Source: a virus. From it: a stretch of DNA of 21,170 nt. Shown here one piece after another: positions 685-20,755 of this stretch (within the stretch, counting starts at the first letter, position 1; every line of letters starts with the position of its first letter). The position numbers were made by a program, and so were the translations under genes. Location: the IMG/VR virus record IMGVR_UViG_3300021475_000251, positions 1 to 21,170 of that record; one strand, written 5' to 3'. The notes below the pieces were generated by a model, which worked only from the letters and a program-made list of their open reading frames with translations, was not told the origin of the DNA and did no database searches.

Positions 685-926
685 GCGACCCCCTTCCCGG
701 CTGCGGGCAGAATCCGCATGGTGGGGATGTTCGTTCCCCCGTAAAACTGCCGCTGTAAACCGTCTCCGGTAGTAGCTTGCGGGGGCATCGCGGCGAGCAT
801 ATTGGGTGATCGCCCGGGGGTATTGGAGAGGTCTGGAATGGAGGGCGGGTTCCCCGCTCCGGGGCTCGCCGGGGCGGGCTCCCAGCCCGTCATATTCGCC
901 TTTGCTGCCTGTCTCAAACTTGCCAT
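681..926 (-). CDS. Small Pro/Ala-rich hypothetical protein
   Basis: An 81-residue protein. The start is the ATG at 926, which overlaps the TAA of the tail gene (TAATG) and has GAGGAG six bases upstream; a longer in-frame start at 1037 would lie deep inside the tail gene and is rejected. The sequence is low in complexity, with many Pro, Ala and Gly (GWEPAPASPGAGNPPSIPDL) and a short C-terminal segment rich in aromatic and Met residues (QFYGGTNIPTMRIL). It looks disordered. It is probably translationally coupled to the tail gene. No function is recognised. Confidence 0.7.
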   Translation of the reverse strand: MASLRQAAKANMTGWEPAPASPGAGNPPSIPDLSNTPGRSPNMLAAMPPQATTGDGLQRQFYGGTNIPTMRILPAAGKGVA

Positions 927-3900
927 TATTGACTCCTCTGCTCCTGCCACATTTGCCCGAATATTGTGTACGTCAGGAGTTCGTCGGGGGTGTTCGTTTC
1001 GTCCCACGTAAGGCCGAACTTTATTACCTGACACCACACTGGTTTTTGGCTCTGCAATAGGCTGTAGCGGTTGCTGATGAATGATGTACTGGGAGGAAGA
1101 TTGGGGGGGTCTTGCCGGGTACGGGGAACGTCTTCATAAGCGGCGTCTACCTCGTCTAACACGACCCCCAAAGCGGGGGCTTTTCCGGTCGCGGAACACT
1201 TCAAAGTCATCCACGCCAGCCCCGCTAATTGACCCGGATTCGCGAGCACAATGGGGTTGAAATCTACCCCCATTGGGTAGCTCGTTCCATTGTCCTGATA
1301 GGTCGTGGTGTCGCGGTACAGGATGGGCCCCCCAGCAGCCGGGGGGCCTACCAAAAGTGCCATTGTTCCGGGGAGAACTTCAGTCGATTGAAGGGCGCTC
1401 AAGCCCCCCGTAATCACCGCCGCAGGGCTCCAATTTGCACCCGTTTCGGGGGCCGAAGTGGGGGCCATTCTGTACCATAAAGTCTGTCCATCGGACAGGT
1501 ATAGCGCCGTCTCTCCCGACCCCCCGGTGTGCATGGTCAGGTACGCATTCTTGGGGTCGATTCCGTTCGCAATATTGGCTATCGGGAAGGACGCTTCGGT
1601 GATGCCGGAGCCCGGGTCTAAAGACTCCACCATGCGGTGCCCGCCGAACATATAAGCGGACGATAAAAAGGGCGCAAAGGCGTCGTAATGGAGGAGCGGA
1701 ATCTGCTCAATCCACGTCTTCATATAGAGCGGGTCATTGGGGGTTGCGGAGCCTCCAATGAGGTACGCATCCCGCAGCGTAAGCACCATCACACCCAGCG
1801 AATTTACCCAAAATTTGACGATCTTTGACTGGGCTGTGAAGGTGGTGTCGAAGCCCGCATTCCCGCTGCTCCCGCTGGCGATTGCGTCGGGGCCTGACGA
1901 CACATAAACCACGTTGTTTACGGCTGCAAAGATGCGCCCGAGATGGTACGCGAGACAGGTTGCGCCCACGGGTAGCGGCGTCCCTTCCCCGTTCACTTGG
2001 GCCTGTATCTCGGTGTTGAGATCGGCATCCGGCGTGGTGTCGATGTACGTCCACTGCACCCCCGCCCCGGGGTTGGGGAAGGACGCCAGAAACAGGAACG
2101 TAGAGCCCCCCTGTGCGGTGCGGTAGAGGATGATGGTAGTCACCCCGGATGCCCCGGTTCCATATCCCCGCACCATCACCTGATTGCCCTGAATAACGGT
2201 GATCTGCACCGACTTCGGGCTCATGTTCGAGATGTCGATAAAATCCCCGTCCGCGTTGGTGGTCGCGAAGGCGTCGCCGTACTGCACGGGGGCCGTGCCA
2301 GCCACGGCATAGGGCCCGCCATTCTGCCAGATCACCCCGCCGTCTGTGGTCAGCGCGCCGGGTTCGGTCGCGAAGATCGGCGCGGTGCTCCCACTCTTCC
2401 CCGGCTGCACCGCGTATTGCATGTAGCCGTTGAAGTCCACGATGGCTGCGGCGGATGTGATGGGCGTGTTGGGCCCGAGATCGGCCCACGTCAGGGCCTT
2501 GCCCTGATTCGTCCACACCACGGTTCCATCCGCCACCTGCAACCCCGCACCTGCAACCCAGTTGGGTGTCGTCGTTCCGCTCTGCCCCGCCGTGCTGCAC
2601 ACGAAGAACTGGGGGGAACTTCCCGGGGGCGACACGGGTATCGCCATCACGACAGCGCCAACGGCAAAGCCAGTGCTCGACTGCCACGGGTAGGGGCCTA
2701 GATTTGTCCATAGAACGGTATTGTCTTGCGTGGTGCCGCCCACGGCTGGGTTCCACGGCGAGGGCTCCGTGCCGCCCGTCACTCCGTTGCCGTTGAATAC
2801 CTCCACGTTGCCCGTGTACGGCACATTGATCGCAGACAGGCCGAAGCAGTTACCGAAGCCCGCCCAGCGATTCCCTTGGCCGTCTTGGTAGTAGCCGTCG
2901 AAGGTGTTGTTGGGCGTTAACGCGCTCCATCCCTGACTCTCATTTGTGCCCGATGGCGTCCACCCGCACATCGCCCCGGTCGAACCCGTGACGGGTCGCC
3001 CCGAGATGCCGAAGCTGGTTCCCTGCGCGATGTTGGTCGCGAATAATAGGCTCTGATATTGATTCGGGAAGACTCCGATGGCGAGCACGGTGCAGTTGTT
3101 TCCCGGCCCTACAACGAGGTTCGCGGATTGGTTATAAAAAACTGCGAATACTCCGGCTGTGCCCTGCCATGAATTCCCGTCGTTGTCGTTGTAGACGGCG
3201 GCGACGATTAGCTGGGTGGGGGTGATTATGAGATTGCAGTTCTGTACCCCCTGCATGGTGTGGCCCAAGTTCGTTGTGCCGCCCACCATCCCCGCCATCC
3301 ACTGCACATTCGCCGTTCCGAACCCGGCGGGAATCGGCACAAGGCTCTGGTCGAACCCGGTGCCGAAGACCATCGCCATGTCGTCACCCAGCGCCGTTCT
3401 GTATAGCAGGGTGGTGTAGTTGCCCACTGTGGTAACAGAAACGGGCGCGCCCGCCGTCCACGCAACGGCTATCCAGTTGGTCGAAGCGTTGAATGCGAAG
3501 CCACCTGAAAAGCTCTGGAACGCGCTGTTGGTTACGCCGTTGCCCCCGGTGGACTGGTAGACGCCGCTGGTAACTACACTCGGGCTGATACCGTCGCCGG
3601 GGCTTGTCCACATCAGCAGCCGCGTCGTGTCGAATCCTGCGGGTAGCTGCACGGTCGCCCCGTTGATGCTGCTCTGGCCGCAGCCGATGGCGAGATTCCC
3701 CCCGCCGAAGAGCGGGATGATGGAGAAGTTAGGCAGTGCAGCTACGGGGTCATCGAGGATGAGCATCCCGGGCCGCGCGGCGTTGTAAACCGGGTAGCCA
3801 GTACCGGGGGCCCATGACGGATAGGGGTTAGGGCGCGGCTGCTGCGTCACGGTCGGCGCGTCGGGCGGGGCATCGACTCCCCATTTTGTAACGTTCCCGG

Positions 3901-4375
3901 TTGCATTATCCAACTGCATGTTGTCTACGCCATTGGTGAAGTAGAGCGTGTTGCCCACGCCGAGAAAGTAGGTGCTCCCGGCCCCCGGCGACTTGGTGAA
4001 GATCGCATTCTTGGTGAAGGGCCCGGTGCCGTCGAAGACGGTCGCTGCGGTATCCACCATCACCCGCACCGCTTCATCGGTGGTGGTGAAGGTATTCCAC
4101 CCGTAGAAGCGATTGATGGGCGGGAAGATTTGCCCGTTGTAGATGGACAGCCCCGGCCTTCGTATCAGGGTGAGGCGCGTGCTGACTTCGCAGTTCACGC
4201 CCCCGGCGTAGCTGTCTTTCTTGCCCCCGTAGTAGCTCTCCATGAATTCGCTGGTTGACGCATCGCGCAGCGGGTTCGTGTTGGGCCACAAGCCCGTCGC
4301 CTGTCGGTTGACATGCAGCGGGGCGAAGTCGCTGGCGGGCAGCGCGGCTCCGGCGATTTGGAGATTCGACGGCAT
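926..4375 (-). CDS. Large tail protein, T7 gp12-like (tail nozzle / tubular B type) with inserted modules
   Basis: A 1149-residue virion protein and the largest gene in the window. Residues about 30-80 (GLWPNTNPLRDASTSEFMES, then an SxRLTLIRRPG stretch) resemble the N-terminus of podoviral tail tubular B proteins, which form a beta-propeller nozzle below the adaptor. Strand-rich segments near residues 100-150 and again after about 700 fit a propeller. Between them lies a long Gly/Thr/Asn-rich part. At about 535-700 it holds three copies of a module ending D(G)xxVxWxNxG (DNTVLWTNLG, DGTVVWTNQG, DGGVIWQNGG), perhaps a surface or carbohydrate-contact insertion. The start overlaps the previous stop (TAATG). 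The assignment rests on motif memory and gene order. Confidence 0.75.
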   Translation of the reverse strand: MPSNLQIAGAALPASDFAPLHVNRQATGLWPNTNPLRDASTSEFMESYYGGKKDSYAGGVNCEVSTRLTLIRRPGLSIYNGQIFPPINRFYGWNTFTTTDEAVRVMVDTAATVFDGTGPFTKNAIFTKSPGAGSTYFLGVGNTLYFTNGVDNMQLDNATGNVTKWGVDAPPDAPTVTQQPRPNPYPSWAPGTGYPVYNAARPGMLILDDPVAALPNFSIIPLFGGGNLAIGCGQSSINGATVQLPAGFDTTRLLMWTSPGDGISPSVVTSGVYQSTGGNGVTNSAFQSFSGGFAFNASTNWIAVAWTAGAPVSVTTVGNYTTLLYRTALGDDMAMVFGTGFDQSLVPIPAGFGTANVQWMAGMVGGTTNLGHTMQGVQNCNLIITPTQLIVAAVYNDNDGNSWQGTAGVFAVFYNQSANLVVGPGNNCTVLAIGVFPNQYQSLLFATNIAQGTSFGISGRPVTGSTGAMCGWTPSGTNESQGWSALTPNNTFDGYYQDGQGNRWAGFGNCFGLSAINVPYTGNVEVFNGNGVTGGTEPSPWNPAVGGTTQDNTVLWTNLGPYPWQSSTGFAVGAVVMAIPVSPPGSSPQFFVCSTAGQSGTTTPNWVAGAGLQVADGTVVWTNQGKALTWADLGPNTPITSAAAIVDFNGYMQYAVQPGKSGSTAPIFATEPGALTTDGGVIWQNGGPYAVAGTAPVQYGDAFATTNADGDFIDISNMSPKSVQITVIQGNQVMVRGYGTGASGVTTIILYRTAQGGSTFLFLASFPNPGAGVQWTYIDTTPDADLNTEIQAQVNGEGTPLPVGATCLAYHLGRIFAAVNNVVYVSSGPDAIASGSSGNAGFDTTFTAQSKIVKFWVNSLGVMVLTLRDAYLIGGSATPNDPLYMKTWIEQIPLLHYDAFAPFLSSAYMFGGHRMVESLDPGSGITEASFPIANIANGIDPKNAYLTMHTGGSGETALYLSDGQTLWYRMAPTSAPETGANWSPAAVITGGLSALQSTEVLPGTMALLVGPPAAGGPILYRDTTTYQDNGTSYPMGVDFNPIVLANPGQLAGLAWMTLKCSATGKAPALGVVLDEVDAAYEDVPRTRQDPPNLPPSTSFISNRYSLLQSQKPVWCQVIKFGLTWDETNTPDELLTYTIFGQMWQEQRSQ

Positions 4376-5082
4376 TAGCTCTGACTCCTCGCGCCGATGC
4401 CTTGCTGCGTGGTTGCCCGCGTGCGGTCAGTCTGACTCAGCAGTGACAGCCACTCGCCGATGAAGATGTTGCGCTGGGTTGCGGTGAGTCCGTCCTGCGC
4501 GCCCAGCAGATGCGCGGCGAATTTCTGCATGAAAATCTGCTGGCGAATATCCTTGGTAATCATCGACATCATCGCGAGGAATCCCCAGTCGGTGATATAG
4601 GCGAGGTTGTCGGGGATGGGGGCCCAGCTGGACGCGAGCGAGGTCATCAGCACCGGGGCCTTCTGATAGAACCCATCGAGCGTGTACGGCTGGTCAGGAA
4701 GGGTGTTGAGCCGGATTGAGATGCTGAGATCGTCCTGAAGCTCGACGGCGCAACTCTGCGGGCGTTGTATCGCGCTCTCGACGGAGAGGGTGGGAACGAC
4801 AGGTATCTCCTTCGCCTTGCCCTTGGCGTCGATGAGCCACGCTTGTTCCAAGAATCCGAAGGTGGTGACGGGAATGGTGTAGTCCTGATCGCCGCCGCTT
4901 ACAGGTGTGGGCCCCAGCGTCGCCCGGTTCCACGGCCATGTGAACGGCGGGCCCATGATGGTCTGCTTCAGCAGGTTCGCCGCATCGAGCGCGGGCTGGC
5001 CCGCAGAAATATCTCCCGGCTGGTTGCCGATGAAGGGCAGGGAAAACAGAAGACTCGACATGATGTTTCGCGTTGTCGGCAT
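4375..5082 (-). CDS. Phage connector/adaptor-like structural protein
   Basis: A 235-residue protein. The start at 5082 follows directly on the stop of the previous gene, with a GGAGG-type site about nine bases upstream; an in-frame ATG at 5061 is an alternative. Residues 10-55 (IGNQPGDISAGQPALDAANL, then GPPFTWPWNRA) fit a small head-tail connector protein of podoviruses: a conserved helical start followed by a Trp-rich contact. The rest is strand-rich in the middle and helical at the C-terminus (MMSMITKDIRQQIFMQKFAA). It lies between the adaptor-like protein and the tail nozzle, which supports a role at the neck or tail. No catalytic motif is seen. Confidence 0.65.
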   Translation of the reverse strand: MPTTRNIMSSLLFSLPFIGNQPGDISAGQPALDAANLLKQTIMGPPFTWPWNRATLGPTPVSGGDQDYTIPVTTFGFLEQAWLIDAKGKAKEIPVVPTLSVESAIQRPQSCAVELQDDLSISIRLNTLPDQPYTLDGFYQKAPVLMTSLASSWAPIPDNLAYITDWGFLAMMSMITKDIRQQIFMQKFAAHLLGAQDGLTATQRNIFIGEWLSLLSQTDRTRATTQQGIGARSQS

Positions 5083-7238: not shown

Positions 7239-8372
7239 CTAGGTGAGGGCGGTGGATGCGTCGGTGTAGCGGAGGCGCGTAACCGGGTCAGGTGGCAGCG
7301 TCGAGGTATACATGGTGTTGTAGCTCGCGAATCCGCCGATCATGCGGGACGGGTCGTACCCGCTGGGCTCGGTGAGTCGCTTCACCCACACCTGCAAGTT
7401 GCGCCAGTCGCCGTCACCGATCTGCGTGTTCTCCTTCGCGCCAAACGAGATGCCGATCACAGCATCTTTGCCGATGACGTAGGTGCGCAGCTTGACGGGT
7501 GTACCTGCGGTTTGCTTGACGAGGGTGGACTGATGGAACGCAGCGCCGCCCCAGTCGATCACGATCACGTTGTCGCCATCCGGGGCCGGAAGCTCGCGTA
7601 GCTTTTCCTGCCCTTCAGCAGTGCGCTTCAGAACGTCAGTGATGCCGTTCGGCTGCGTGCTGATGAGAATGTCGCCCACGATGAGCGGGTGGATGACTCC
7701 GGTGAAACGGGCGTTGTCATAGGGCAGGGCATTGACCGATGTGAGCGACTGCACCATCGAAGTAATGTCCTGCGCGATGAGCCCGGTGGGGTCGATGGGA
7801 ACATGAACCGTCAACGGGTCTACAACTCCGGCTCCGTCTGCGGTGTTCTGGATGATAAGGTTGATTACCTGCGCCATGCGATAGGCCATCTGCACGCCCA
7901 GCGCTTCGAGGGCGGGGTCGATGGCGGTCTGCAAAGCGTAGGTCGAGATGTTCGCGTAGTCCGCAAAATTTCCGATGGTCGAAGTGTTCTGCACCACCGA
8001 AACAGTCAAGCCCGTTTGAATCGTACCTTCAGGCGCTTGGGTGGTCGGAGGAGCGGGCAAGTTCTGATACATGAAGAGCGCTAATTTGTTGCCCGCGTTC
8101 TCATCGAGCGTGCGCCGCGACGTGCATCTCACCCACGGAGTTTCTGCTTTTAAGTTCTCGACAAACACTTTGTCGAAAGACGTAACTACAGACTGCGGAA
8201 GGTTGGTTGTGAGGTTCGATGCTGGCGAGACGCCAACACCGAACGCGCCCTGCACGCGGTAGCGTGCAACGTCTCCCGTCCACAACATGATCTGCCCACC
8301 GAGTCCGGCGACAAACTGAAGGAACGGAATAATAAACTTTGCTGCGAGCCTTGCTCCTGATGTGGTCTGCAT
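7239..8372 (-). CDS. Major capsid protein, N4-gp56-like
   Basis: A 377-residue protein that fits the N4-gp56 family of HK97-fold major capsid proteins by length, position (directly after a scaffold-like gene) and sequence feel. A loop region (NAGNKLALFMYQNLPAPP) is followed by TLTVSVV-like strands, an alpha-rich spine with IGNFADYANISTYALQTAID, and a later IHPLIVGDI segment. KLRELPAPDGDNVIVIDWGG and IGKDAVIGISFGAK are also typical. The start ATG has GAGGGGGA upstream. A hairpin behind the gene and the isolated spacing fit strong late expression. The family call is from recognition of these segments, not a search. Confidence 0.75.
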   Translation of the reverse strand: MQTTSGARLAAKFIIPFLQFVAGLGGQIMLWTGDVARYRVQGAFGVGVSPASNLTTNLPQSVVTSFDKVFVENLKAETPWVRCTSRRTLDENAGNKLALFMYQNLPAPPTTQAPEGTIQTGLTVSVVQNTSTIGNFADYANISTYALQTAIDPALEALGVQMAYRMAQVINLIIQNTADGAGVVDPLTVHVPIDPTGLIAQDITSMVQSLTSVNALPYDNARFTGVIHPLIVGDILISTQPNGITDVLKRTAEGQEKLRELPAPDGDNVIVIDWGGAAFHQSTLVKQTAGTPVKLRTYVIGKDAVIGISFGAKENTQIGDGDWRNLQVWVKRLTEPSGYDPSRMIGGFASYNTMYTSTLPPDPVTRLRYTDASTALT

Positions 8373-8403: not shown

Positions 8404-9228
8404 CTATAAGCTATCGACGGCCTTGCGGAAGCCCGGTTCATTGGCTAATCGGTGGTTGTATTCCGCCCTCGGCATCGCTTCAAGATCGGCGCGTGTCAGT
8501 TTCTTCACGGGCCTCGGTGCAGGGGGCAGGGCGGACGCATCGGTTCTACGAATCCCCGTCGCTACACTGATGTTCCGTGGTCGTGTCGTAGGAGAGGGCG
8601 GGGGTTGTGCCTCGCGTTGCTGTCCGTTGGGTGGTGCGGTGTCGTAGTTGGCGTCTTCGCCTTCAGGCCAGTGAATCATCTCGCCCTGATCGTCGAGGGC
8701 TTGGAACACTAGGGCCAGATTGTTTCGCGTCACATCGTAGTTGTTGGCTTTGAGTGTCGCGAAGAGTTTGTCGCGGTTCTGTCCTACCGGGTAGTAGTCG
8801 GGGCATTCATCCATGAACGCCCGGGCCTCGGCCAGATAGTAAGCGTCGCGTTGTGCGTCGGTCATGGTAGCTAGGCTTTGCGTAGCTGCACGGGGAGGCA
8901 CGCCACCGTTGGCTGCGGTCACGATCTCCGTTACGGCTTCGACTACGGTTTCCGGGTCGCCAAGATTCGCGGTTAGGCGAAGCCTGTCGGCGGGGGTTAT
9001 TTGGGTGTCTTTCGGTGTGAGTTGTTGGGGAACCCTCGCTTGGTCGGGCCGTCGAAGGCGGCTGATCTCGCGATTGGCATTGGCTTGTGATTCGAGAACC
9101 TTGTCAGCCACTTCCTTCACACTCTTGCCTTTGAAGGTCGATATGCGATGGCCTTTGTCGTTCTCGATGACTGCGATGATGTCGCCGTTTTCGTCCGGCT
9201 CTCCGTCGTTCAACCATTTGGGTTGCAT
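8404..9228 (-). CDS. Scaffold-like protein upstream of the capsid gene
   Basis: A 274-residue acidic, largely helical protein immediately before the major capsid gene, the usual site of a capsid scaffold. The N-terminus has a small strand-rich part (GDIIAVIENDKGHRISTFKG) and then a charged helix with RLRRPDQ. The middle contains helices rich in Ala and Asp (AQRDAYYLAEARAFMDECPD). A disordered Pro/Gln-rich linker leads to a basic C-terminal helix (VKKLTRADLEAMPRAEYNHR), a typical arrangement for scaffolds that bind the coat protein through their C-terminus. No protease motif is seen. Function is inferred from position and composition. Confidence 0.65.
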   Translation of the reverse strand: MQPKWLNDGEPDENGDIIAVIENDKGHRISTFKGKSVKEVADKVLESQANANREISRLRRPDQARVPQQLTPKDTQITPADRLRLTANLGDPETVVEAVTEIVTAANGGVPPRAATQSLATMTDAQRDAYYLAEARAFMDECPDYYPVGQNRDKLFATLKANNYDVTRNNLALVFQALDDQGEMIHWPEGEDANYDTAPPNGQQREAQPPPSPTTRPRNISVATGIRRTDASALPPAPRPVKKLTRADLEAMPRAEYNHRLANEPGFRKAVDSL

Positions 9229-10158: not shown

Positions 10159-10400
10159 GGCGGGCCTCCACAGTGTCGGGGAATTTGGTTGCAGTCTGAT
10201 GAATCGGTCAGCCTGTGACCGTGAATGATGATGACTCCACAGCCGCTCGCATCGACGTAGGGATGGCATTTGCAGCCCTGCCCGAAGGTGTGCTGGGGGC
10301 TCATGTACCCGCTCGCGGTGCAGGGCGCTACGTCAACCCTGTGGCGCGTCTTCTGGAAGACTCCCCACCTGACGTTCGCGTGGCGCGGGTGTGCCATCAT
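10149..10400 (-). CDS. Small Cys/His-rich hypothetical protein
   Basis: An 83-residue protein whose ATG overlaps the portal stop (ATGA) and has GGGGGTGG upstream. It contains seven Cys and nine His, including CKCHPYVDASGCGVIIIHG and a CGGPPCH end. These could form a zinc site with an extended strand (GVIIIHG). The unusual composition could also indicate a spurious frame, but exact overlaps with both neighbours and a good ribosome site favour a gene. No function is recognised. Confidence 0.6.
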   Translation of the reverse strand: MMAHPRHANVRWGVFQKTRHRVDVAPCTASGYMSPQHTFGQGCKCHPYVDASGCGVIIIHGHRLTDSSDCNQIPRHCGGPPCH

Positions 10401-12520
10401 CCACCCCCTGTCGGCGCGAAGAATGGTGTGGCTTGCATGGTGCGTTCGTCGGCGGTGCGCTCGGCGAAGGCGGCGGCGCGTTCGAGCGGCGACTGCACCA
10501 GCGTCTTATGCGTGTTGTCGATGCTGGTAGCGGCGATGCGTCCGGCGATCTTCTTGTCCTCTAGCTGCATGTCGTTTTGGTGCTTTTGATCTAGCAGCGC
10601 GGAGTCAGCCTGTGCCTTGACGGTGGCGGGATTCTGCGCGGCCATCGTCTGCATCTCCTGCGGGGTCATCTGCACGATGAGGTCGGCGCGATTCTTCCAC
10701 TCGCTCATGTCGAGCACCATCTGGCAAAGCTCCATCGCATCCACCTTCCACCCGGTCTGCGATAGCTGCTGTACGAGGGCTTGGTTGCCGAAGACTTCGA
10801 GCAGGAAGGGGAGGGCCTGTGCCATGCGGTTACGGGCCGCGAGATTCGTGCCCGCCAGCGTCTCGAACGTGACATCGCTCTCCATGAAGTCGGCGAAGTC
10901 GAGGGCGAGATCGGCGGTGCGCTTGCCCAAGATCGCGCGAATCTCGGCGATGGGCATCCGCGACTTCACCATCTGCCACAGGAACTTCAGGAAGGGCAGG
11001 AAGACGCCATCGACGAAGCGCTCGACAGGTGACTGCAAGCGCCCTGCGGACGCGGCAGCGATCATCCCGGCCCCCGTGCCCGATTTGCCAATACTCGAAC
11101 CCCGGGCCGGAAGCGTGCCTTGCACGCTCGCCTGATCTGCACCTGTCGAGCTATCCCCCGTCGCAATGGCGGCTTGAATCGCGCGCCATGCATCGGGCGG
11201 CACCTGCGGCTGAGGTACTAGCGCAATGGACTTGGTGGCGTCTTCACCGTCCACCATGCGGATGCCGCCCAGCCTCCGGCGCAAGTCCTGCGTCGGAACG
11301 TTCGCGCCCCGGGCGACAGCGTACTCCGGCTGCACCGCGAAGGCCAAAATATCGAGAATAGCGTTGACTAAGCCCTGAGACACCCTTTGGTCGCTTCCCG
11401 CTATGCGGCCAACTCCAAGGCCATAGCCCGCGTCGTTGATGTTCCAGTAGTTCGCCGCGAAGAAGGGCTTACCCGGCAGCTTGTGATCGCCGTTGCGGAT
11501 GACGCACTTCTCTTGCAGCACCACCCGGCAGACTGTCTCACTCCACCATTCGAGTAGCTGCATCGGCTTCAGGAGCGGGTCTTCGTCGAAACGATTATCG
11601 TCGGGGTCGGCGGCATGGTGGACGCTGGTATTGGCACTCAGGGCCTCGGCGACGGCGTTCTCCGCTTTGGTCTGCTCGCCTTCATCCATGAAGATTGCGC
11701 GCAACACTTCCTGACTGGGGATGTCATAGTCCGGGTTCTCACGCAGCTTTTCGAGGTCGTAGTAGTTGACATAGCTCTCGTGGATTATCCATCTCGCTTT
11801 TTTGATCTGATTCGGCGAACGCCACTTGGGGTCTACGAAAACCTCGCCCAAGTTACATTTTTCGAAGATGGGGCGGTTGCGCGTAACTTCAACGTCGATG
11901 ACTTCAAACTCATCCGAGTCTTCGGTGTAGACGGTCATGGGCGGGCCCAGCGGCATGTCCACCTGCGCCGGAGCGGTCTTGCGAACGTAGTGCTCCTCGA
12001 TGGTCGTCTCCGTCTCCCAGCCTGTCTTGAAGATCACGGTGCCGCTGTTGACCATCGCCTCGATGCCGAAGCTGGCTTCCTGCTTGAAGCAGATTTCGTC
12101 GAGCAGTTCGCTTACCAAGTTCGTCCACGCCCGGGCGCTGTCCTGCGACGTGGTGGGCCGGGGCCGGATGAGGAAGGGAGTGGGGTCAGAAAAAATCGCT
12201 CCTGAGATGGCAGGAGCGAGTGAGTTTACTTGGCGGGCGACATCGAATCGCGAGACGTTTGAGCGGGTGACTGTCGAGCCCTCGAAAGTTGACATCGTTC
12301 TCGGGCTCTGGTACAGGATGTCGCTCTCGTTCCACTGCAACGGCCAGCGGCGGTCATTCAGCCACGACACCGCAGATCGGTAGTCCGACATGACGATGGA
12401 GAGCACCGCCGCATCGGTGTACTTGGGGGGGATTTCTGGCTTTTCGTAGGTGGTTATGTCGGCGTCTTTGACGGGGGCCCAAGGTGCCGATGTCTCACGT
12501 AATGTTGCAGTAGCGCCCAT
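10397..12520 (-). CDS. Portal protein
   Basis: A 707-residue protein in the size range of the large podoviral portals, the dodecameric ring through which DNA is packaged and ejected. Signs are the long alpha/beta core with VARQVNSLAPAISGAIFSDP, the wing and strand segments (GEVFVDPKWRSPNQIKKARW; QLLEWWSETVCRVVLQEKCV), a Gly/Asn-rich turn (FAANYWNINDAGYGLGVGRI) and the helical stem part (GLVNAILDILAFAVQPEYAV). A long charged, Gln-rich C-terminal helix (LLDQKHQNDMQLEDKKIAGR) may form the barrel. It precedes the scaffold and capsid genes in transcription order, as usual. The ribosome site is GAGGGTGG before the ATG. Confidence 0.82.
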   Translation of the reverse strand: MGATATLRETSAPWAPVKDADITTYEKPEIPPKYTDAAVLSIVMSDYRSAVSWLNDRRWPLQWNESDILYQSPRTMSTFEGSTVTRSNVSRFDVARQVNSLAPAISGAIFSDPTPFLIRPRPTTSQDSARAWTNLVSELLDEICFKQEASFGIEAMVNSGTVIFKTGWETETTIEEHYVRKTAPAQVDMPLGPPMTVYTEDSDEFEVIDVEVTRNRPIFEKCNLGEVFVDPKWRSPNQIKKARWIIHESYVNYYDLEKLRENPDYDIPSQEVLRAIFMDEGEQTKAENAVAEALSANTSVHHAADPDDNRFDEDPLLKPMQLLEWWSETVCRVVLQEKCVIRNGDHKLPGKPFFAANYWNINDAGYGLGVGRIAGSDQRVSQGLVNAILDILAFAVQPEYAVARGANVPTQDLRRRLGGIRMVDGEDATKSIALVPQPQVPPDAWRAIQAAIATGDSSTGADQASVQGTLPARGSSIGKSGTGAGMIAAASAGRLQSPVERFVDGVFLPFLKFLWQMVKSRMPIAEIRAILGKRTADLALDFADFMESDVTFETLAGTNLAARNRMAQALPFLLEVFGNQALVQQLSQTGWKVDAMELCQMVLDMSEWKNRADLIVQMTPQEMQTMAAQNPATVKAQADSALLDQKHQNDMQLEDKKIAGRIAATSIDNTHKTLVQSPLERAAAFAERTADERTMQATPFFAPTGGG

Positions 12521-13407: not shown

Positions 13408-13547
13408 CGTGATTCCTCCGGGCTCCCACACATGTAATGCTGGGTGAGCGTATGGCCGCATTCGCACTCGGCGCTTCCCGGCGTCTTGGGCGTGAATCGC
13501 ATACACCCCGATTCTTTTGGTACGGCATCGATCATCACTCTATTCAT
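13380..13547 (-). CDS. Small zinc-ribbon-like protein (55 residues)
   Basis: A short frame that begins at the end of the terminase gene, with ATG 13547 (TGATG overlap) or ATG 13550 one codon earlier, and overlaps the next gene by 28 bases. The second half carries CECGHTLTQHYMCG and then CLVC, giving CxC...H...C...CxxC, a plausible single zinc site. The first half is ordinary (MNRVMIDAVPKESGCMRFTP). Such small Cys-rich proteins are frequent in this genome. No specific role can be given. Confidence 0.6.
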   Translation of the reverse strand: MNRVMIDAVPKESGCMRFTPKTPGSAECECGHTLTQHYMCGSPEESRCLVCRRPG

Positions 13548-15292
13548 CATTCCAACCCCGGCATCATCACTTCAAGGCCCTGCGCATTGATGCGCTGATC
13601 TTCGATGCGCGGTTCGTCGAACATGATCTCCTCCGGCTCCGGCTCGCTTGGCGCATACTGGCCGCGATTGTAGATGATGTTGAACTTGTCTCTCTCACGC
13701 ATCATCTCCCACGCGAGGTCTTCGTCTTCTAGCTCCGTAGCTGCAATGCTGAGGGGCAGGTTGTCGGCGACGCGCGAGATCACATCCGGCAACCCGCTCT
13801 CCTTCGTCATCCCGTACTGCACGAAGCCCTCGATGAGCGGCTTGGTTTTGAGCGCGTTCGAGAAGTACAGCCGCGAGGTCGCGAGCAGCGGTTCGAGGTT
13901 GCGGATGCGCGTGTCGCGCTCGGCGGCGTCGCTCTCAAACTCTGTCCACGTAATCGAGATGTCCCACCCGGTCGTCAGGCTGTGGTTGTTGATCGCGGGC
14001 TGAATCATGCGCGCCCCGGGCGACTCCTCGATGTTGACGTGATGCGCTCCGTTGCGGCGGGCGACATCGTGAATCAGCTTCGCCAGCACGGACGGCTTGT
14101 AGTGACCGTGAATCGTCTCGGTGATATACATCCGGTTCTGGCGCATGATGCCCACCGCGCCGGAGGTCGCGTGCCAGTCGAGCGAGCGGCAGGGAAGCCG
14201 GAAGTGAATGTAGCGCTGGCCCTCCATCGGCATCACGTCTTCGTCGATGATCGCGGCGAGCATCTGCGCTTCAGTGAAGACAAGCTCGGCAGCGCCATAG
14301 CTGTCGAGCATGTACTGCGACATGAAGAATTCATAGTCGGTGTCATACTCCTCGCGCAGAAAATCGTAGTTGAGGATGGAGGGGAAGAGCAGTTCAACTT
14401 CGTTCTCGGCGGGGAAGCCGTTGGGGTCTAGGCGCTCGCCGGAGAGCAGCTTCATCGCGGGTTTGAACACGCGTTCGTAGGTGCCCGGGCGCGCGGTCAG
14501 AACTTGGTCGGAGAAGACATCGCCCAGTCCATAGGGTGTGCCGATGAAGAGTTCGATTCCGGTGGGCTTCAGAATCTTGCGCGTGAGTTTGTAGGCTTTG
14601 GCGACGCGGGTGCGGCCCTCGAAGGTACGCGAGTTGCGGTTGTTGTGGATGTCATCGTAGATGAGTAGGTCGGGGTGGTATCCGGTCGTGGAGGATTCGA
14701 TGGAGTTGGCCCATATCAGCGGCTCGACGATCTTGGGCTCATGCTGGCGAAGTGGACAGGTAAACTCGCCCGGGTTCTTGGCCGGGTTCTTGCTGCAACA
14801 CAGTTCGGGGAAGAGGGCTTGGAAGAGGGTGGCGGGGCGGTGCAGCGGCTTGATGAAGAAGCTCGCGATCTGCTCGACAAAATCGAAGGCGAGTTCCTTG
14901 CCGCCCGACATGATGAGGATGGCGATGGTCATGTAGAAGCGCAGAATCGTTTGCACGATGTAGCACATGTCTAAGGTGCTCTTATAGGTGTTGCGCGGGT
15001 AGAGCAGCGTGCGGCGGCGCTTGACCCCAAGGTGCAATTCTTCCACGGTGCGGTCGGGCTCGATGTGGGGGAAGAAGTGCAGCGCTTCATGGTGAACGTC
15101 CTCGGTGATGAGGCAGTAGCCCAGCACGTAGGCGAGCGCGAGCAGGTTGGTGGTGCAGCAGCGCCGCCCGTCCTCGCGTACCTTCTCATCGTCGATCACA
15201 AGCTGGGTCAGCTGGGCGCGCCATGCGCGGTTGTCGCCGCGCTCTTGGTTCGGGTCGCGCAGCTTGCGCCAGTTGAAGTGCGGCTCGCTCAT
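13547..15292 (-). CDS. Terminase large subunit (DNA-packaging motor)
   Basis: A 581-residue ATPase/nuclease that pumps DNA through the portal and cuts it. The Walker A region is LLYPRNTYKST (about 97-106), a variant of the PRGxGKST type. Walker B is DLLIYDD (208-214), and the coupling motif LFIGTPYG is at about 248-255. The RNase H-like nuclease begins at SLDWHAT (Asp about 372), with a late acidic motif in GLPDVISRVAD. Length and motif order agree with podovirus terminases. It overlaps the upstream gene by four bases (ATGA). No recognisable small terminase subunit gene is next to it, and the packaging type cannot be read from this. Confidence 0.88.
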   Translation of the reverse strand: MSEPHFNWRKLRDPNQERGDNRAWRAQLTQLVIDDEKVREDGRRCCTTNLLALAYVLGYCLITEDVHHEALHFFPHIEPDRTVEELHLGVKRRRTLLYPRNTYKSTLDMCYIVQTILRFYMTIAILIMSGGKELAFDFVEQIASFFIKPLHRPATLFQALFPELCCSKNPAKNPGEFTCPLRQHEPKIVEPLIWANSIESSTTGYHPDLLIYDDIHNNRNSRTFEGRTRVAKAYKLTRKILKPTGIELFIGTPYGLGDVFSDQVLTARPGTYERVFKPAMKLLSGERLDPNGFPAENEVELLFPSILNYDFLREEYDTDYEFFMSQYMLDSYGAAELVFTEAQMLAAIIDEDVMPMEGQRYIHFRLPCRSLDWHATSGAVGIMRQNRMYITETIHGHYKPSVLAKLIHDVARRNGAHHVNIEESPGARMIQPAINNHSLTTGWDISITWTEFESDAAERDTRIRNLEPLLATSRLYFSNALKTKPLIEGFVQYGMTKESGLPDVISRVADNLPLSIAATELEDEDLAWEMMRERDKFNIIYNRGQYAPSEPEPEEIMFDEPRIEDQRINAQGLEVMMPGLE

Positions 15293-16726: not shown

Positions 16727-17069
16727 CCTGCTCCTCCGGCTTCACCTTCGGCTTGCGCACGCGCGGCTGGGGTGGGTTGGCTCTAAGATACTCCCGCTCG
16801 GCGAGTTCTTCTGGCGACAGTTCGGAATCGGGCGGTGGATTTTTCATCTCGGCGTTCCGCCAGCGCCGGAAGCGCGAGCGCTCTGCCGGGGTGCTCGGCT
16901 TCAGACAGTATTTGCAGCGCTTCTTTCCCATCCTTTGCTTCCGCCACACGTCGCGCCTGTCGCGGCACGCATCGGAGCAGGTGAGGGTGATGTTGGGCCG
17001 GGGGTGATCGGCTGGGATGGGCTCGCCGCACATGGTACAGCGGGGGATGATGATCTCTTCTTCTGTCAC
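16707..17069 (-). CDS. Zinc-finger-like protein, GTG start
   Basis: A 120-residue protein starting at GTG 17069, which overlaps the resolvase stop by four bases (GTGA) and has GGAG five bases upstream. Residues 10-60 hold CTMCGEPIPADHPRPNITLT, CSDACRDRRD and CKYCLKP, a Cys pattern of CxxC...CxxxC...CxxC that can bind one or two zinc ions. The order CxxCG...TCSDAC is reminiscent of treble-clef-like fingers in small phage and plasmid proteins. The C-terminal half is Pro/Glu/Lys-rich and disordered. A DNA or RNA contact is likely but inferred. Confidence 0.7.
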   Translation of the reverse strand: MTEEEIIIPRCTMCGEPIPADHPRPNITLTCSDACRDRRDVWRKQRMGKKRCKYCLKPSTPAERSRFRRWRNAEMKNPPPDSELSPEELAEREYLRANPPQPRVRKPKVKPEEQDAEVAG

Positions 17070-17500
17070 TCTCTCTCCAATCGGGTAACTACAAATTCGG
17101 TGCGGGGGTTGTGGCGCTCGTCCTTGACGACGATGGCCTTGGATTCGTACACGTAGGCATCCGAATGGATGACACCACAGGCTTCGAGGGCGTCCTGTGC
17201 CGCCTTCAGGAAGTTGTCGGCGTCGCCGCGCTGCCTCGGGCCCAAGTAGACCGTCACACGAACCTCGTATCGTACCTTCAGCCGTTCTTTGTCGGTTGCC
17301 GGGGCGACGGTGCGGCCTTGGGCGAAGAGTCCCACGGCGAAGCGAAATGCTTCCGCCGCCTTGGTCAGCTTCCGGCCCTTTACTGCCTGTCCGTTCTTGG
17401 CCCTGTAGTACACGATGCGGTACATGTGATTCACGGATGGGGGTACAAGCGGCACCGTGAAAGCGACTGTTTTCTCGATGAGTGTAAAAGTCCTTGCCAT
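17066..17500 (-). CDS. rusA: RusA-type Holliday junction resolvase
   Basis: A 144-residue endonuclease of the RusA family, which cuts branched DNA. The start at 17500 (MARTFTLIEK) is set by the divergent promoter and by normal RusA length; the frame is open further but would overlap the next gene. Conserved parts are PLVPPSVNHMYR (17-28), a basic segment and RGDADNFLKAAQDALEACGV. Three acidic residues lie at 93, 95 and 114; this spacing (2 and 19) equals that of the E. coli RusA active-site aspartates (70, 72, 91), so the enzyme looks intact. In a phage it can clear branched DNA before packaging. It is the first gene of the minus-strand block. Confidence 0.88.
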   Translation of the reverse strand: MARTFTLIEKTVAFTVPLVPPSVNHMYRIVYYRAKNGQAVKGRKLTKAAEAFRFAVGLFAQGRTVAPATDKERLKVRYEVRVTVYLGPRQRGDADNFLKAAQDALEACGVIHSDAYVYESKAIVVKDERHNPRTEFVVTRLERE

Positions 17501-17536
17501 ACCTTCAATCGTAGCTGCATAATCGCTACATGGCAA
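17494..17536. promoter_or_regulatory. Compact overlapping divergent promoters
   Basis: Plus strand: TTGCCA (17494-17499), 18 bases, CATAAT (17518-17523), predicting a start of transcription at or next to the ATG at 17530. Minus strand: TTGCCA (17535-17530), 17 bases, TACGAT (17513-17508), predicting a start at about 17500-17501, the resolvase ATG. The outer TTGCCAT/ATGGCAA pair is an inverted repeat that also holds both start codons. A copy of the dispersed word (CGTAGCTGCA, 17510-17519) lies between and overlaps both -10 boxes. Confidence 0.6.
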
Positions 17537-17784
17537 ACAAAAAGCTGAAAACCGCAAAGTATGTGCCCGGGGCCGGGAACCGCTCTCGCAAGCGAACCGG
17601 AATCGTCGTTCAAAGCATCCGCATGTTGGCATCCGACAACAAGCTGGTGCGCGCCGCAGCGAAGAATGCAGGGGAGTCGATCAATGCATGGGTCAACGCC
17701 GTCCTGATTCGCGAAGTGAACAAGGCACTCAAACGTAAACGCATGACAACCGAAGAGCGTATGAGAGAGGCAACCCGTGGCTAG
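17530..17784 (+). CDS. Ribbon-helix-helix-like small DNA-binding protein
   Basis: An 84-residue basic protein. Residues about 23-65 fit a ribbon-helix-helix fold: a strand (TGIVVQSIRML), helix 1 (NKLVRAAAKNAG), a turn, and helix 2 (ESINAWVNAVLIREVNKAL). The AAKNAGESINAWVNAVL pattern is typical of Arc/HicB-like repressors. Both ends are Lys/Arg-rich. It has no ribosome site and its ATG sits at the predicted transcription start, so it may be translated from a leaderless message. As the first gene of the plus-strand replication block, next to a divergent promoter with an inverted repeat, it is a good candidate for the local repressor. The binding site is not shown. Confidence 0.72.
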   Translation: MANKKLKTAKYVPGAGNRSRKRTGIVVQSIRMLASDNKLVRAAAKNAGESINAWVNAVLIREVNKALKRKRMTTEERMREATRG

Positions 17785-17986
17785 AACCGCAGCACCGAAG
17801 AGTGAGATCAAACCCACCATCACCACCAACGGCGTAATCGCCCCTCAATCTCCCGACCCCGTGCGGGAGTTGTTTTACATGCTGGGCGTCATGCGCGGCG
17901 CTAACGTGGATGGGGCTATCCGCGTCGCGGAGTTGGCTAATCTGCTCATCCCCACCACCAACAACACCAACCCCGGAGGCGAATAA
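17777..17986 (+). CDS. Small hypothetical protein, GTG start
   Basis: A 69-residue protein starting at GTG 17777, which overlaps the upstream stop by eight bases and has AGAGG about seven bases upstream. The N-terminus is disordered (ARTAAPKSEIKPTITTNGVI); residues 28-58 form a helix-rich segment (VRELFYMLGVMRGANVDGAI, RVAELANLLIP). The end is Asn/Thr-rich. No family is recognised. It is part of the plus-strand early operon and shares no similarity with its neighbours. Confidence 0.65.
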   Translation: MARTAAPKSEIKPTITTNGVIAPQSPDPVRELFYMLGVMRGANVDGAIRVAELANLLIPTTNNTNPGGE

Positions 17987-18205
17987 TTGGACGCCGAGAT
18001 GAAAGAGCATTTGGAGAAGATGGAAGCCCGCATCGTCGAGCACATCCATGACACAGAAACCCGGCTCCTGCGCGCCTTCCGTAACTGGGCAGTGCGCATC
18101 GAAGCCTCCGTCAAAGTCAGCCGCGCAAACTATGAGGGCCTTGATGCCCGCATGGGCGTAGCTGAGGAGCGGCTAAACGAGATGGACGCAGGAGGGCAGC
18201 AGTGA
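17987..18205 (+). CDS. Short coiled-coil protein, TTG start
   Basis: A 72-residue protein with its start at TTG 17987, just behind the upstream TAA and with GGAGG about seven bases upstream; ATG 17999 is a shorter alternative without a good site. Almost the whole sequence is amphipathic helix (EMKEHLEKMEARIVEHIHDT, ETRLLRAFRNWAVRIEASVK, LDARMGVAEERLNEMD), so a dimeric coiled coil is likely. Similar small helical proteins are common in phages. The function is unknown. Confidence 0.65.
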   Translation: MDAEMKEHLEKMEARIVEHIHDTETRLLRAFRNWAVRIEASVKVSRANYEGLDARMGVAEERLNEMDAGGQQ

Positions 18206-18432
18206 CAACGAAGAAGGTCGATGAAACCGCATCGAACATCGCGCTCGCGATGACTCAACGCTTCAACCAGAATCGCGGCGTCCACAAGAAGGCCGTCGAG
18301 GGTCTGACTGAGGAGCAGACCGTTGATTTTGACCAACGGCTGCTCGGCGCTCTGATGACCCTCACCAACCCGATAGAGTTCAAGGAGACTATCGACAGGC
18401 TGAAGAAGGATATGAGCAATGGCATCCGGTAA
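18202..18432 (+). CDS. Small helical hypothetical protein, GTG start
   Basis: A 76-residue protein beginning at GTG 18202, with a GTGA overlap with the upstream stop and GGAGGG upstream. Sequence is helical and hydrophilic (ETASNIALAMTQRFNQNRGV, TVDFDQRLLGALMTLTNPIE, FKETIDRLKKDMSNGIR). No motif is recognised. It is translationally coupled to both neighbours in the replication-side operon. Confidence 0.65.
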   Translation: MTTKKVDETASNIALAMTQRFNQNRGVHKKAVEGLTEEQTVDFDQRLLGALMTLTNPIEFKETIDRLKKDMSNGIR

Positions 18433-18706
18433 GAGCGTCAGGGGATGGCCTCTGATGAAGCGTAAATGCACCACCTGCCCCTTCGGGCCGAACGGCGACC
18501 CCTTCATTCGTGATGGGGTCGTCTCACGTTTATTCAAGGGCTCGCAGCGCTGCCACCACCCGGTTCTAGCGGGGAAGAAGGAGACGCACCTGTGCCGGGG
18601 CGCTCGCGATCTGCAACTCACCATCCTCACGGGCTTCGGGCTCCTCGACGAACCCACTGACGCGGCGTTTGAAAAGCGCTCGCGAGAACTAGGGGCGATA
18701 AAATGA
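18419..18706 (+). CDS. Cys-rich small phage protein with CxxCPF motif
   Basis: A 95-residue protein with AAGGAT before ATG 18419 and a 14-base overlap with the previous gene. It contains KRKCTTCPFGPNGDP, then QRCHHPVL and THLCRGARDLQL. This is the layout of a small phage family in which CxxCPF, a central CxH and a late LCRGA-type stretch probably hold a metal. The helical end (DAAFEKRSRELGAIK) may contact a partner. I recognise the pattern from phage early regions but cannot give a function. Confidence 0.72.
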   Translation: MASGKSVRGWPLMKRKCTTCPFGPNGDPFIRDGVVSRLFKGSQRCHHPVLAGKKETHLCRGARDLQLTILTGFGLLDEPTDAAFEKRSRELGAIK

Positions 18707-18966
18707 AGGTTGAATTGCCGTCTGACTACTGGGAGAAGTTCAAAGCAACACTGCCCAGCGCATTCAGCGAAATTACTTTGATGACGTTACGCTATGCCTT
18801 CTTCGCCGGATGCGCGGCTGTCAACGCGTCCATGCAAGCCCTGACGGATATTGATGACGAAGACGAGGGTGGGGCTGCTATGGGCGAAGTGATTTCAGAC
18901 CTAACCAAAAACTTTGAAGCAGCGAAAAGCTGGCTGGGAGAGCAGCACAAAGAGAGAGTGGACTGA
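18703..18966 (+). CDS. Small phage protein, paralogue of the next gene
   Basis: An 87-residue protein overlapping the previous stop (ATGA). The core DYWEKFKATLPSAF, then LRYAFFAGCAAVNASMQALT, followed by an acidic tail, aligns with the next gene's DYWAEIISGWPTDI and MRNLFYAGFALSSSFMGELK. The shared pattern DYW...MRxxFxAGxAxxxSxM suggests one ancestral gene copied in tandem. The R-x-x-F-x-AG helix is frequent in uncharacterised small phage proteins. No activity can be assigned. Confidence 0.72.
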   Translation: MKVELPSDYWEKFKATLPSAFSEITLMTLRYAFFAGCAAVNASMQALTDIDDEDEGGAAMGEVISDLTKNFEAAKSWLGEQHKERVD

Positions 18967-18968
18967 TT

Positions 18969-19253
18969 ATGATGCAGGGAGTTCGCACGCATGAAGATTA
19001 TTGGGCTGAGATAATTTCGGGTTGGCCCACCGACATACCCCCGGATAAATTGGAGTTCATGCGCAACCTCTTCTACGCCGGGTTCGCCCTGTCGAGTTCG
19101 TTTATGGGCGAGTTGAAACGGAGTTCGATCACGCGCGAGGAGAAGGTCGCGCTTCACCACTTCTGCATGACCGAATGTATTCGACTCTCCGGTATTACGG
19201 GAGAGCAAACCTTAGTGCAGGAGAGGGGCGACGTAACTACATGGGAGCCATGA
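18969..19253 (+). CDS. Small phage protein, paralogue of the previous gene
   Basis: A 94-residue protein starting at ATG 18969 or the adjacent ATG 18972, without a strong ribosome site. Residues 9-48 (EDYWAEIISGWPTDIPPDKL, EFMRNLFYAGFALSSSFMGE) match the gene before it; the C-terminal half (EEKVALHHFCMTECIRLSGI) is different, with a helical Cys/His stretch. The last codons contain a copy of the dispersed word (CGTAACTACA, 19232-19241), and the TGA overlaps the favoured repA start. Confidence 0.7.
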   Translation: MMQGVRTHEDYWAEIISGWPTDIPPDKLEFMRNLFYAGFALSSSFMGELKRSSITREEKVALHHFCMTECIRLSGITGEQTLVQERGDVTTWEP

Positions 19254-20344
19254 CGGAGCGCGCTAATCACCCTTTGGGGCTGTCGTTGTCAGACCAAGAG
19301 AGCATCGACAACTTTGAAAATTTTTGGGGCCGCGAGGTCTTAGACAACCCGCTCATTGGGTTCAATCATTACTGGAATACTTCGATAGGTTCGCCCTTCA
19401 AAGACCCCGGCATGATCGACCTGTGGGTTCGTAAGGACGGGAATCGCATCTTCACAATTCGCAACGGTCACGCCATCCACCCACACACTGACGATCTGGT
19501 GTTGCAGGGTTATCCCTATGGCCTCTGGCCGCGCCGTCTTCAGGCTATTATGAACGCTCAACTCATTCGCAACCGGGGCGTCCGCGACATCTACGTTGGC
19601 CCTGCGTTCACACCATATTTGCGGTCGCGGCTGGGTGGTATCGACATGACGGGCGGCAAGACTGGGAACATCGCACGCGCCAAAGAACAGATGCTTCGGC
19701 TGGCGTCCTCAACCTATCGCTTCTACATCCGGGGAGAACAGGCCGGGGCGATGTATAACCCGGCCCCGATGATCGAGCGGTGCGGCGTTTACTTCGGTGA
19801 GGACGCGGAGAATTGGCCGCTCATGCTGACCATCTCCAAGCCCTACGCGGAGAGCATCTGCACCGAGGGCAACGCGGTTCCGGTGGACATCGCCGCTCTC
19901 ATGCGAATCAAGGGGCCGATGGAGCATGACGTTTACTCGTGGTCTGTCCGGCGCGTCTTTGGTGTCAAGCCGGGGAAGCCCGTTCCCCTGACATGGCAGA
20001 ATATGTTCGAGCAGTTCGGTAAAACTACCTACCTCTCTCCGACTGCGATGAAGGACTTTCAGAAGGATTTCAGGGCGTGCGTGCTGCATCTCCGCAAAGA
20101 GGTCTATCCCGATCTGAACTTTGAGGAGCGCTTGGGGAAGTGGTGGCTCTCGGCGTCGAAGCTGGCGGTGCCGCAGAAAAAATACTGGCGCGGGTTCACG
20201 GAGGAGCGTCAACTTAGCCTCCTGCCACCCGAACCCGACGAGCCGGAGGAGACTACTGAGCTACCGCTTTGCTCTCGCTGCGGCGGGTCTGGTTTCGACC
20301 GAAAAATTGGGAACCGATGCACCTGTGGAGCACCGATGCGGTGA
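19250..20344 (+). CDS. repA: Plasmid-type replication initiator (RepA_C-like) with C-terminal zinc ribbon
   Basis: A 364-residue protein from ATG 19250 (ATGA overlap); ATG 19241 and 19175 are in-frame alternatives. Residues 87-160 (GYPYGLWPRRLQAIMNAQLI, GPAFTPYLRSRLGGIDMTGG, IARAKEQMLRLASSTYRFYI) match the plasmid RepA_C pattern: a GY-P-G loop, an arginine-rich helix, a (G)xxFxxxLxxLG segment, a GGKxG turn, and a QMxRLA helix. These proteins bind iterons beside the origin and open it. The C-terminus adds CSRCGGSGFD and CTCG (Cys 341, 344, 357, 359), a DnaJ-like zinc ribbon not usual for the family. The iteron array follows immediately, which supports the role. Confidence 0.8.
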   Translation: MTERANHPLGLSLSDQESIDNFENFWGREVLDNPLIGFNHYWNTSIGSPFKDPGMIDLWVRKDGNRIFTIRNGHAIHPHTDDLVLQGYPYGLWPRRLQAIMNAQLIRNRGVRDIYVGPAFTPYLRSRLGGIDMTGGKTGNIARAKEQMLRLASSTYRFYIRGEQAGAMYNPAPMIERCGVYFGEDAENWPLMLTISKPYAESICTEGNAVPVDIAALMRIKGPMEHDVYSWSVRRVFGVKPGKPVPLTWQNMFEQFGKTTYLSPTAMKDFQKDFRACVLHLRKEVYPDLNFEERLGKWWLSASKLAVPQKKYWRGFTEERQLSLLPPEPDEPEETTELPLCSRCGGSGFDRKIGNRCTCGAPMR

Positions 20345-20346
20345 GC

Positions 20347-20547
20347 CACGCATAATACCCGTGGATTCACAACCTAAATAGTTGAAAATAAACGGAAATG
20401 TCACGCATAATACCCCTCCAAGTCGGTTTTCCACAGAAAAGTGTGGAAAGCCGACTTTTTCCACGCATAATACCCCTCCGATGGTTGTCAACAACTTACG
20501 GATTGGTCACGCATAATACCCCTCCAAGTCACGCATAATACCCCTCC
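20347..20547 (+). repeat. Five direct repeats (iterons), probable replication origin
   Basis: The core CACGCATAATACCC occurs at 20347, 20402, 20462, 20508 and 20530. Four copies share the full 18-mer CACGCATAATACCCCTCC, and those at 20402 and 20508 extend to 22 bases (ending AAGT). The copy at 20347 departs after the core (GTGG). Start distances are 55, 60, 46 and 22 bases; the last pair lies on the same DNA face. The spacing is irregular and the spacers unrelated, unlike CRISPR. An AT-rich stretch is at 20371-20400. Placed right behind repA, these fit initiator binding sites of an iteron plasmid. Confidence 0.85.
20420..20457 (+). terminator. Strong hairpin: repA terminator overlapping a DnaA-type box
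   Basis: AAGTCGGTTTTCCACA (20420-20435) pairs with TGTGGAAAGCCGACTT (20442-20457), one G-U wobble, loop GAAAAG. Three more Ts follow (20458-20460), giving a good plus-strand intrinsic terminator behind repA. The left arm holds TTTTCCACA (20427-20435), which fits the DnaA-box consensus TTWTNCACA, and the right arm a near copy in reverse. The element may serve both roles. Confidence 0.65.
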
Positions 20548-20755
20548 GGCCTTTAATGTATTTCCGGTAGTTGCCGTTAGAAAAGAAACTATCCGGTAGT
20601 CGATGAAGCCCCCGCGATGTGGAAAATGCACAACAGCAAGTGCAAAAGCGCCCCTCCACGGCGTTTTCGGCCCTCCGGGGTGGGCTACCCCTAACCAAAC
20701 CCGTAGAATGAGCACCTACCCCGGTTTCCGGGGCATTACGAGCCGGAGGGAGAGC
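20548..20755. other. Right flank of the origin and leader of the last gene
   Basis: No gene is supported here. The stretch holds an AT-rich part (20551-20590), a direct repeat TCCGGTAGT at 20563 and 20592, the second DnaA-type box, and two small hairpins before the last gene: GGGGT/ACCCC near 20677 and CCCCGG-TTT-CCGGGG at 20719-20732. A promoter for the next gene probably lies within it, but no clear -35/-10 pair stands out. Confidence 0.5.
20618..20626 (-). promoter_or_regulatory. DnaA-type box
   Basis: TGTGGAAAA on the plus strand is TTTTCCACA on the minus strand, identical to the box inside the hairpin at 20427-20435 and consistent with TTWTNCACA. It lies 71 bases behind the last iteron, within reach of the same origin. 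Confidence 0.5.

Follow-up and report, generated by a model that had tools for sequence, protein, structure and literature searches.

What is a plasmid-type replicon doing in the genome of a tailed phage, and what kind of molecule does it replicate? The question is raised by a stretch of viral DNA from a soil phage, the 21,170 nucleotides of IMG/VR record IMGVR_UViG_3300021475_000251 analysed here (hereafter the window), in which the genes for the terminase large subunit (TerL), portal, head and adaptor proteins all lie on the minus strand and an operon on the plus strand, starting at about 17530, contains the initiator gene repA. An initial annotation had proposed a phage-plasmid, in which podovirus structural genes are joined to a RepA/iteron replicon and the prophage lives extrachromosomally. 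Our analysis bears out the replicon and places it in a molecule that is probably linear, a topology that the annotation had missed. The boldest reading of the data, which we hold to be less likely than not (probability about 0.35), is that of a widespread short-tailed lineage whose linear genomes would end in hairpin telomeres with asymmetric loops, have these resolved by a Holliday junction resolvase of the phage instead of a protelomerase, and be replicated by the host from an exchangeable plasmid-type origin beside one telomere.

A plasmid-type replicon in a phage genome

The product of repA scores 32.4 bits against the RepA_C profile PF04796 (cut-off 26), and that of one relative (G021) scores 87 bits; neither PHROGs nor NCBIfam supplied a family. 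A structural model built from a nine-sequence alignment (mean predicted local distance difference test, pLDDT, 60; predicted template modelling score, pTM, 0.63) found RctB as its top match in a fold search of the PDB (E 1.2e-4), followed by a complex of Rep with DNA-unwinding element (DUE) and iteron DNA and by RepE54, whereas a sequence search of the same database returned no match. Profile and predicted fold thus agree with the RepA_C-like initiator first described. The open reading frame (ORF) opens at 19175, and the ATG at 19250 overlaps the stop codon of the preceding gene. Directly 3' of repA are the five iterons and two perfect DnaA boxes that had been reported there (Table 1). The boxes are the only TTWTNCACA sites in the whole window (0.48 expected), and none of 440 shuffled left-end sequences had any 13-mer three times. 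With a RepA_C protein, iterons and DnaA boxes beside the gene, this is an iteron replicon of the RepA_C type. The range first given, 17066-20626, starts at a position that belongs to a RusA-like gene on the opposite strand.

Window positions 33-21170 are 100% identical to positions 113-21250, on the reverse strand, of a 43,571-bp IMG/VR contig, IMGVR_UViG_3300050821_004311 (G001, the parent contig); bases 1-32 are the sole mismatch and are probably an assembly tail. A terminase search of IMG/VR recovered 61 related contigs, 20 of which, at 40.2-44.7 kb, make up the full-size set to which counts out of 20 refer below. A RepA_C-type repA lies near the same end in ten contigs including the parent (eight full-size and two shorter), so that the joining of phage and replicon genes in one contiguous stretch, as originally claimed, is kept in the parent and in nine relatives. 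The RepA replicon sits in the same molecule as the podovirus-type phage genes.

Within these ten contigs, direct repeats stand beside repA in nine, eight by exact or near-exact match and one (G003) by eye; the search in G030 found none. All ten have at least one DnaA box within the first 1 kb. The repeat sequences differ, and the spacing of about 22/46/60 bp is kept in G001, G002, G012, G016 and G021; G033 has three copies spaced 22/46, G015 deviates at the third interval, and G026 deviates more. At the left end of G026 (L156 815-1828), repA points the opposite way from that of every other relative, and the repeats precede the gene.

Ten other full-size genomes encode an unrelated protein at the repA locus. 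Two members of this alternative initiator, those of G017 and G011, were scanned or read; they contain, or look similar to, the helix-turn-helix (HTH) domain HTH_36, like phage replication initiators. RepA and the HTH-type protein never co-occur, and no comparable repeats were found beside the initiator in the 10 HTH-type genomes. Since the HTH-type genomes are without such repeats, and since spacing is kept despite sequence change, iterons and repA travel together, and the swapping of initiators at one locus is as expected of a working origin module. One genome, G037 (L128-L130), has neither initiator type and encodes another protein of 403 aa at that locus; the presence of CGGCAAAGCC close to each of its two ends is at odds with a simple hairpin picture.

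Genome ends, fold-backs and a conserved resolvase gene

Direct terminal repeats are absent from all 20 full-size contigs, and none is circular. A conserved right-end motif, for which 2.9 million contigs were searched with three patterns, lies no more than 76 bases from the contig end in 8 of the 8 IMG/VR contigs in which it was found and is never continued by other sequence; where a contig falls short of the motif, it has mostly broken off in the repeat-rich DNA that immediately precedes it. Fixed linear ends are thus strongly supported, and with termini that are fixed and no circular contig among the relatives, we take the genome to be probably linear rather than a circular plasmid. The window itself, which stops 112 bases short of the parent contig's left end, is reasonably likely to be the left half of a linear genome of about 44 kb, belonging to a tailed, and probably short-tailed, phage of an uncultivated bacterial host.

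Perfect terminal fold-backs occur at 6 of 41 true ends and at 0 of 71 other contig ends (Fisher p 0.002). The six are spread over four contigs from four metagenomes, their arms measuring 16-69 nt and their loops 14-33 nt: G017 (left, 42-nt arm and 18-nt loop; right, 23-nt arm and 14-nt loop), G027 (right, 19 and 14 nt), G033 (left, 16 and 22 nt; right, 69 and 15 nt) and G035 (left, 40 and 33 nt). The right loops of G017 and G027, TAGGTAATCTCAAC and TAGGTAATATCGAC, come from different metagenomes and agree at 12 of 14 bases. Closed hairpins with short unpaired loops are the likely, though unproven, structure of the ends in the living molecule, unproven because a linear end that primes itself during amplification could leave similar fold-backs. 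The non-palindromic 14-nt loop would fit resolution by a resolvase better than by the known protelomerases, which act on a palindrome, and the protelomerase family of ResT and TelK (PF16684) is matched in 0 of the 20 genomes at E 10.

A candidate resolvase is encoded beside the replication genes. The RusA-like gene, whose ORF is open to 17632 in the window, is found in 16 of the 20 genomes; three have a DUF1064/endonuclease-I-like nuclease at the same place (DUF1064 was over the cut-off in one of the two substitutes tested), and the remaining genome is truncated there. Judged by family matches, then, a predicted resolvase-type gene of one of two unrelated families occupies one locus in 19 of 19 genomes with an intact left arm. 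That two unrelated nucleases of this type fill a single slot suggests that junction cutting matters to these phages.

In the right ends of relatives (e.g. L060 3900-4290), the terminal loop is immediately preceded by a TTGAC box and ATGTTATGC, an arrangement resembling a sigma70 promoter aimed outward into the hairpin, from which a transcript would round the loop into the minus-strand genes. The TTGAC box is conserved in most right ends; when genomes are scored singly, the promoter mostly fails to exceed shuffled sequence significantly. The resolution site of poxviruses can double as a promoter (PMC8956199).

A candidate replication cycle and its rivals

Taken together, these observations suggest a cycle in which RepA would bind the five iterons beside the left end and, with host DnaA, open the origin and load the host replication machinery. 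Use of a host polymerase is proposed here, and no phage DNA polymerase was found: as the initial annotation had noted for the window, neither integrase nor DNA polymerase is seen, with no integrase, DNA polymerase A or DNA polymerase B_2 over the cut-off in the 20 full-size genomes, no DNA polymerase among the large ORFs scanned, and no DnaB helicase over the cut-off in the same 20. Replication round the hairpin ends would yield head-to-head concatemers. On the pattern of poxviruses and rudiviruses, RusA or the endonuclease-I-like nuclease that replaces it would then divide these into monomers with newly formed hairpins. Vaccinia concatemer junctions can form cruciforms, which a Holliday junction resolvase cuts to give flip/flop hairpins (PMC8956199); the same resolution has been proposed for SIRV2, whose resolvase makes nicked, ligatable hairpins in vitro (PMC3157427). 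For the present phages, such resolution is suggested by analogy and is unproven.

Several points weigh against this model. RusA occurs widely among phages for which hairpins are not known. Fold-backs appear in only 4 of the 20 genomes, the window does not extend to the telomeres, and no fold-back is seen in its parent contig. In short-read contigs, a closed hairpin, a head-to-head junction and amplification self-priming at a linear end look alike. Finally, the loops of G021, G011 and G035 are nearer the inverse orientation, which is flip/flop-like, but a permutation test does not reach significance (p 0.17).

Foremost among the rivals, although we regard it as unlikely, is an ordinary lytic phage with a linear genome, fixed cohesive or blunt ends and a RepA/iteron origin, the fold-backs being self-priming artefacts. 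Fixed ends account for the contigs, self-priming at a fixed 3' end could yield the same loop in relatives, and no partition or integrase gene was found. Against this, none of the 20 contigs has circularised, although cohesive ends should form circles inside cells; in addition, two genomes fold back at both ends, and the contigs with fold-backs come from four metagenomes.

Less probable again is a circular phage-plasmid, an extrachromosomal prophage kept by RepA and its iterons, whose contigs break at a palindromic or repeat-rich spot. The plasmid-type initiator and origin, the lack of an integrase in the 20 genomes and the repeat-rich DNA just inside the right end all agree with it, as does an ArdC-type antirestriction protein with a metallopeptidase domain, seen in the right arm of G016 (L055 1146-2036) and others (6 of 20). 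Overlapping ends, however, were found in none of the 20 contigs, and nothing ever continues past the right-end motif. ParA (PF01656) is over the cut-off in 0 of 20, with weak matches near an AAA clamp-loader-like gene, and the terminase has no match in 72,556 plasmids and, by profile, no relative in 84,980 bacterial and archaeal genomes, from which no host could be read either. Of the phage-plasmid first proposed, the combination of structural and packaging genes with a plasmid-type initiator and origin therefore holds; its partition gene and its plasmid or genome records did not materialise, and extrachromosomal prophage life found no backing. Any lifestyle assigned to these phages is inferred.

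Misassembly or chimerism of phage and plasmid, for which one might cite that the window is a fragment with 32 aberrant first bases, is ruled out by the same joining in nine further relatives (RepA 24-54% identical where aligned), from several metagenomes and near the same contig end.

Gene content, host and known systems

The phage genes of the window are collected with the replicon in Table 1. Terminase, portal and head calls from the initial annotation hold, and the "N4-gp56-like" label of the capsid is weak, because the major head protein scores 21.5 bits against TIGR04387, far below the cut-off of 60. The large structural protein is present in 20 of 20 relatives, the HicB-like gene in 19 of 20, and the 98-aa gene next to the origin, which has no Pfam match, in 15 of 20. 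Among nine genomes compared, G016 (about 34179-37388), G017 (35369-38185) and G011 (35333-38065; terL on the plus strand in these coordinates) alone share another large protein of 910-1069 aa, which in G017 weakly matches a bacterial Ig-like domain.

Table 1. Features of the window, in window coordinates
Feature	Position	Strand	Basis or remark
Large structural protein	926..4375	-	local matches to head-decoration/head-closure families phrog_20658, phrog_8040
SU10-like adaptor	4375..5082	-	PF24175 22.8 bits, below cut-off 27
Major head protein	7239..8372	-	phrog_1357 1.5e-7; 39% to Tunturi_3 head protein
Probable scaffolding protein	8404..9228	-	between portal and capsid; weak phrog_2592 match
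Portal, SU10-like	10397..12520	-	PF23899 SU10_portal 4.1e-27; phrog_1216
Terminase large subunit TerL	13547..15292	-	phrog_38 3e-29
RusA-like Holliday junction resolvase	17066..17500	-	PF05866 25.5 bits, cut-off 22.8; phrog_34 7.5e-18
Ribbon-helix-helix/HicB-like small protein	17530..17784	+	first gene of repA operon; weak HicB match
Small genes of repA operon	17777..19253	+	no family
repA, RepA_C-type initiator	19250..20344	+	PF04796 and fold match; iteron-binding by family/fold
Five iterons, core CACGCATAATACCC(CTCC)	20347..20543	+	starts 20347, 20402, 20462, 20508, 20530
DnaA box TTTTCCACA	20427..20435	+	TTWTNCACA pattern
DnaA box TTTTCCACA	20618..20626	-	TTWTNCACA pattern
Small conserved gene, 98 aa	20756..21052	+	between origin and genome end; no family
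Window end	21170	.	close to genome terminus

Elsewhere in the genomes, a clamp-loader-like ATPase is encoded in 15 of 20 and a Rad50/SbcC-like ATPase in all 20 (e.g. L039 11071-12435). The latter is of interest because TelN of N15 inhibits the host Mre11-Rad50 nuclease and so protects the hairpins (PMC12624138); the ATPase is possibly an end-protection factor, and a TelN-type link would be speculation.

The nearest isolate is Tunturiibacter phage Tunturi_3 (PP885686; PMC11924767; portal 37%, head protein 39%, terminase 26%), a podovirus by electron microscopy that infects the acidobacterium Tunturiibacter (PMC11924767). This kinship makes both a short tail and an acidobacterial host plausible at most, and the host is perhaps a member of the Acidobacteriota; Tunturi_3 differs in its size of 97.6 kb, its deposition as circular and its lack of a RepA match. 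At tblastn sensitivity, the sole match to RepA in 50,697 phage records was one unannotated 3.9-kb record, and the papers searched yielded no description of an iteron-bearing phage-plasmid among podoviruses or of closed hairpins within the Caudoviricetes. The design seen here, with a plasmid-type origin by one end and fixed ends, some of them hairpin-like, was not found among the catalogued phages searched.

Each of the known systems shares part of this design. The telomere phages N15, PY54 and phiKO2 and those of the VP882 type are tailed phages with a plasmid-type initiator gene and with linear genomes that hairpins close, as they may do here, but have a protelomerase with a palindromic target, SopA/SopB and long tails (PMC12042878, PMC12624138), whereas the present lineage has no protelomerase, no ParA over the cut-off, loops that are not palindromic, and genes of podovirus type. 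Rudiviruses (SIRV2; PMC3157427) and poxviruses (PMC8956199) combine hairpin ends with a virus-encoded Holliday junction resolvase, and concatemer resolution has been proposed or shown for them; they are, however, unrelated and infect archaea and animals, poxviruses supply the DNA polymerase themselves, and the hairpins and flip/flop of the present phages are putative. RepA_C plasmids, such as those of Burkholderia, Pseudomonas and Azospirillum, have an initiator of the same family, at most about 29% identical among the 40 records listed, and the phage terminase has no match in the plasmid collection.

A phage lineage with a RepA_C iteron initiator, exchanged in some of its members for a different initiator in the same position, newly connects the replication of plasmids with that of phages. 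Should the hairpins prove real, tailed phages that lack a recognisable protelomerase would resolve their telomeres in the manner of poxviruses, and such resolution could then be tested in a simple bacterial system.

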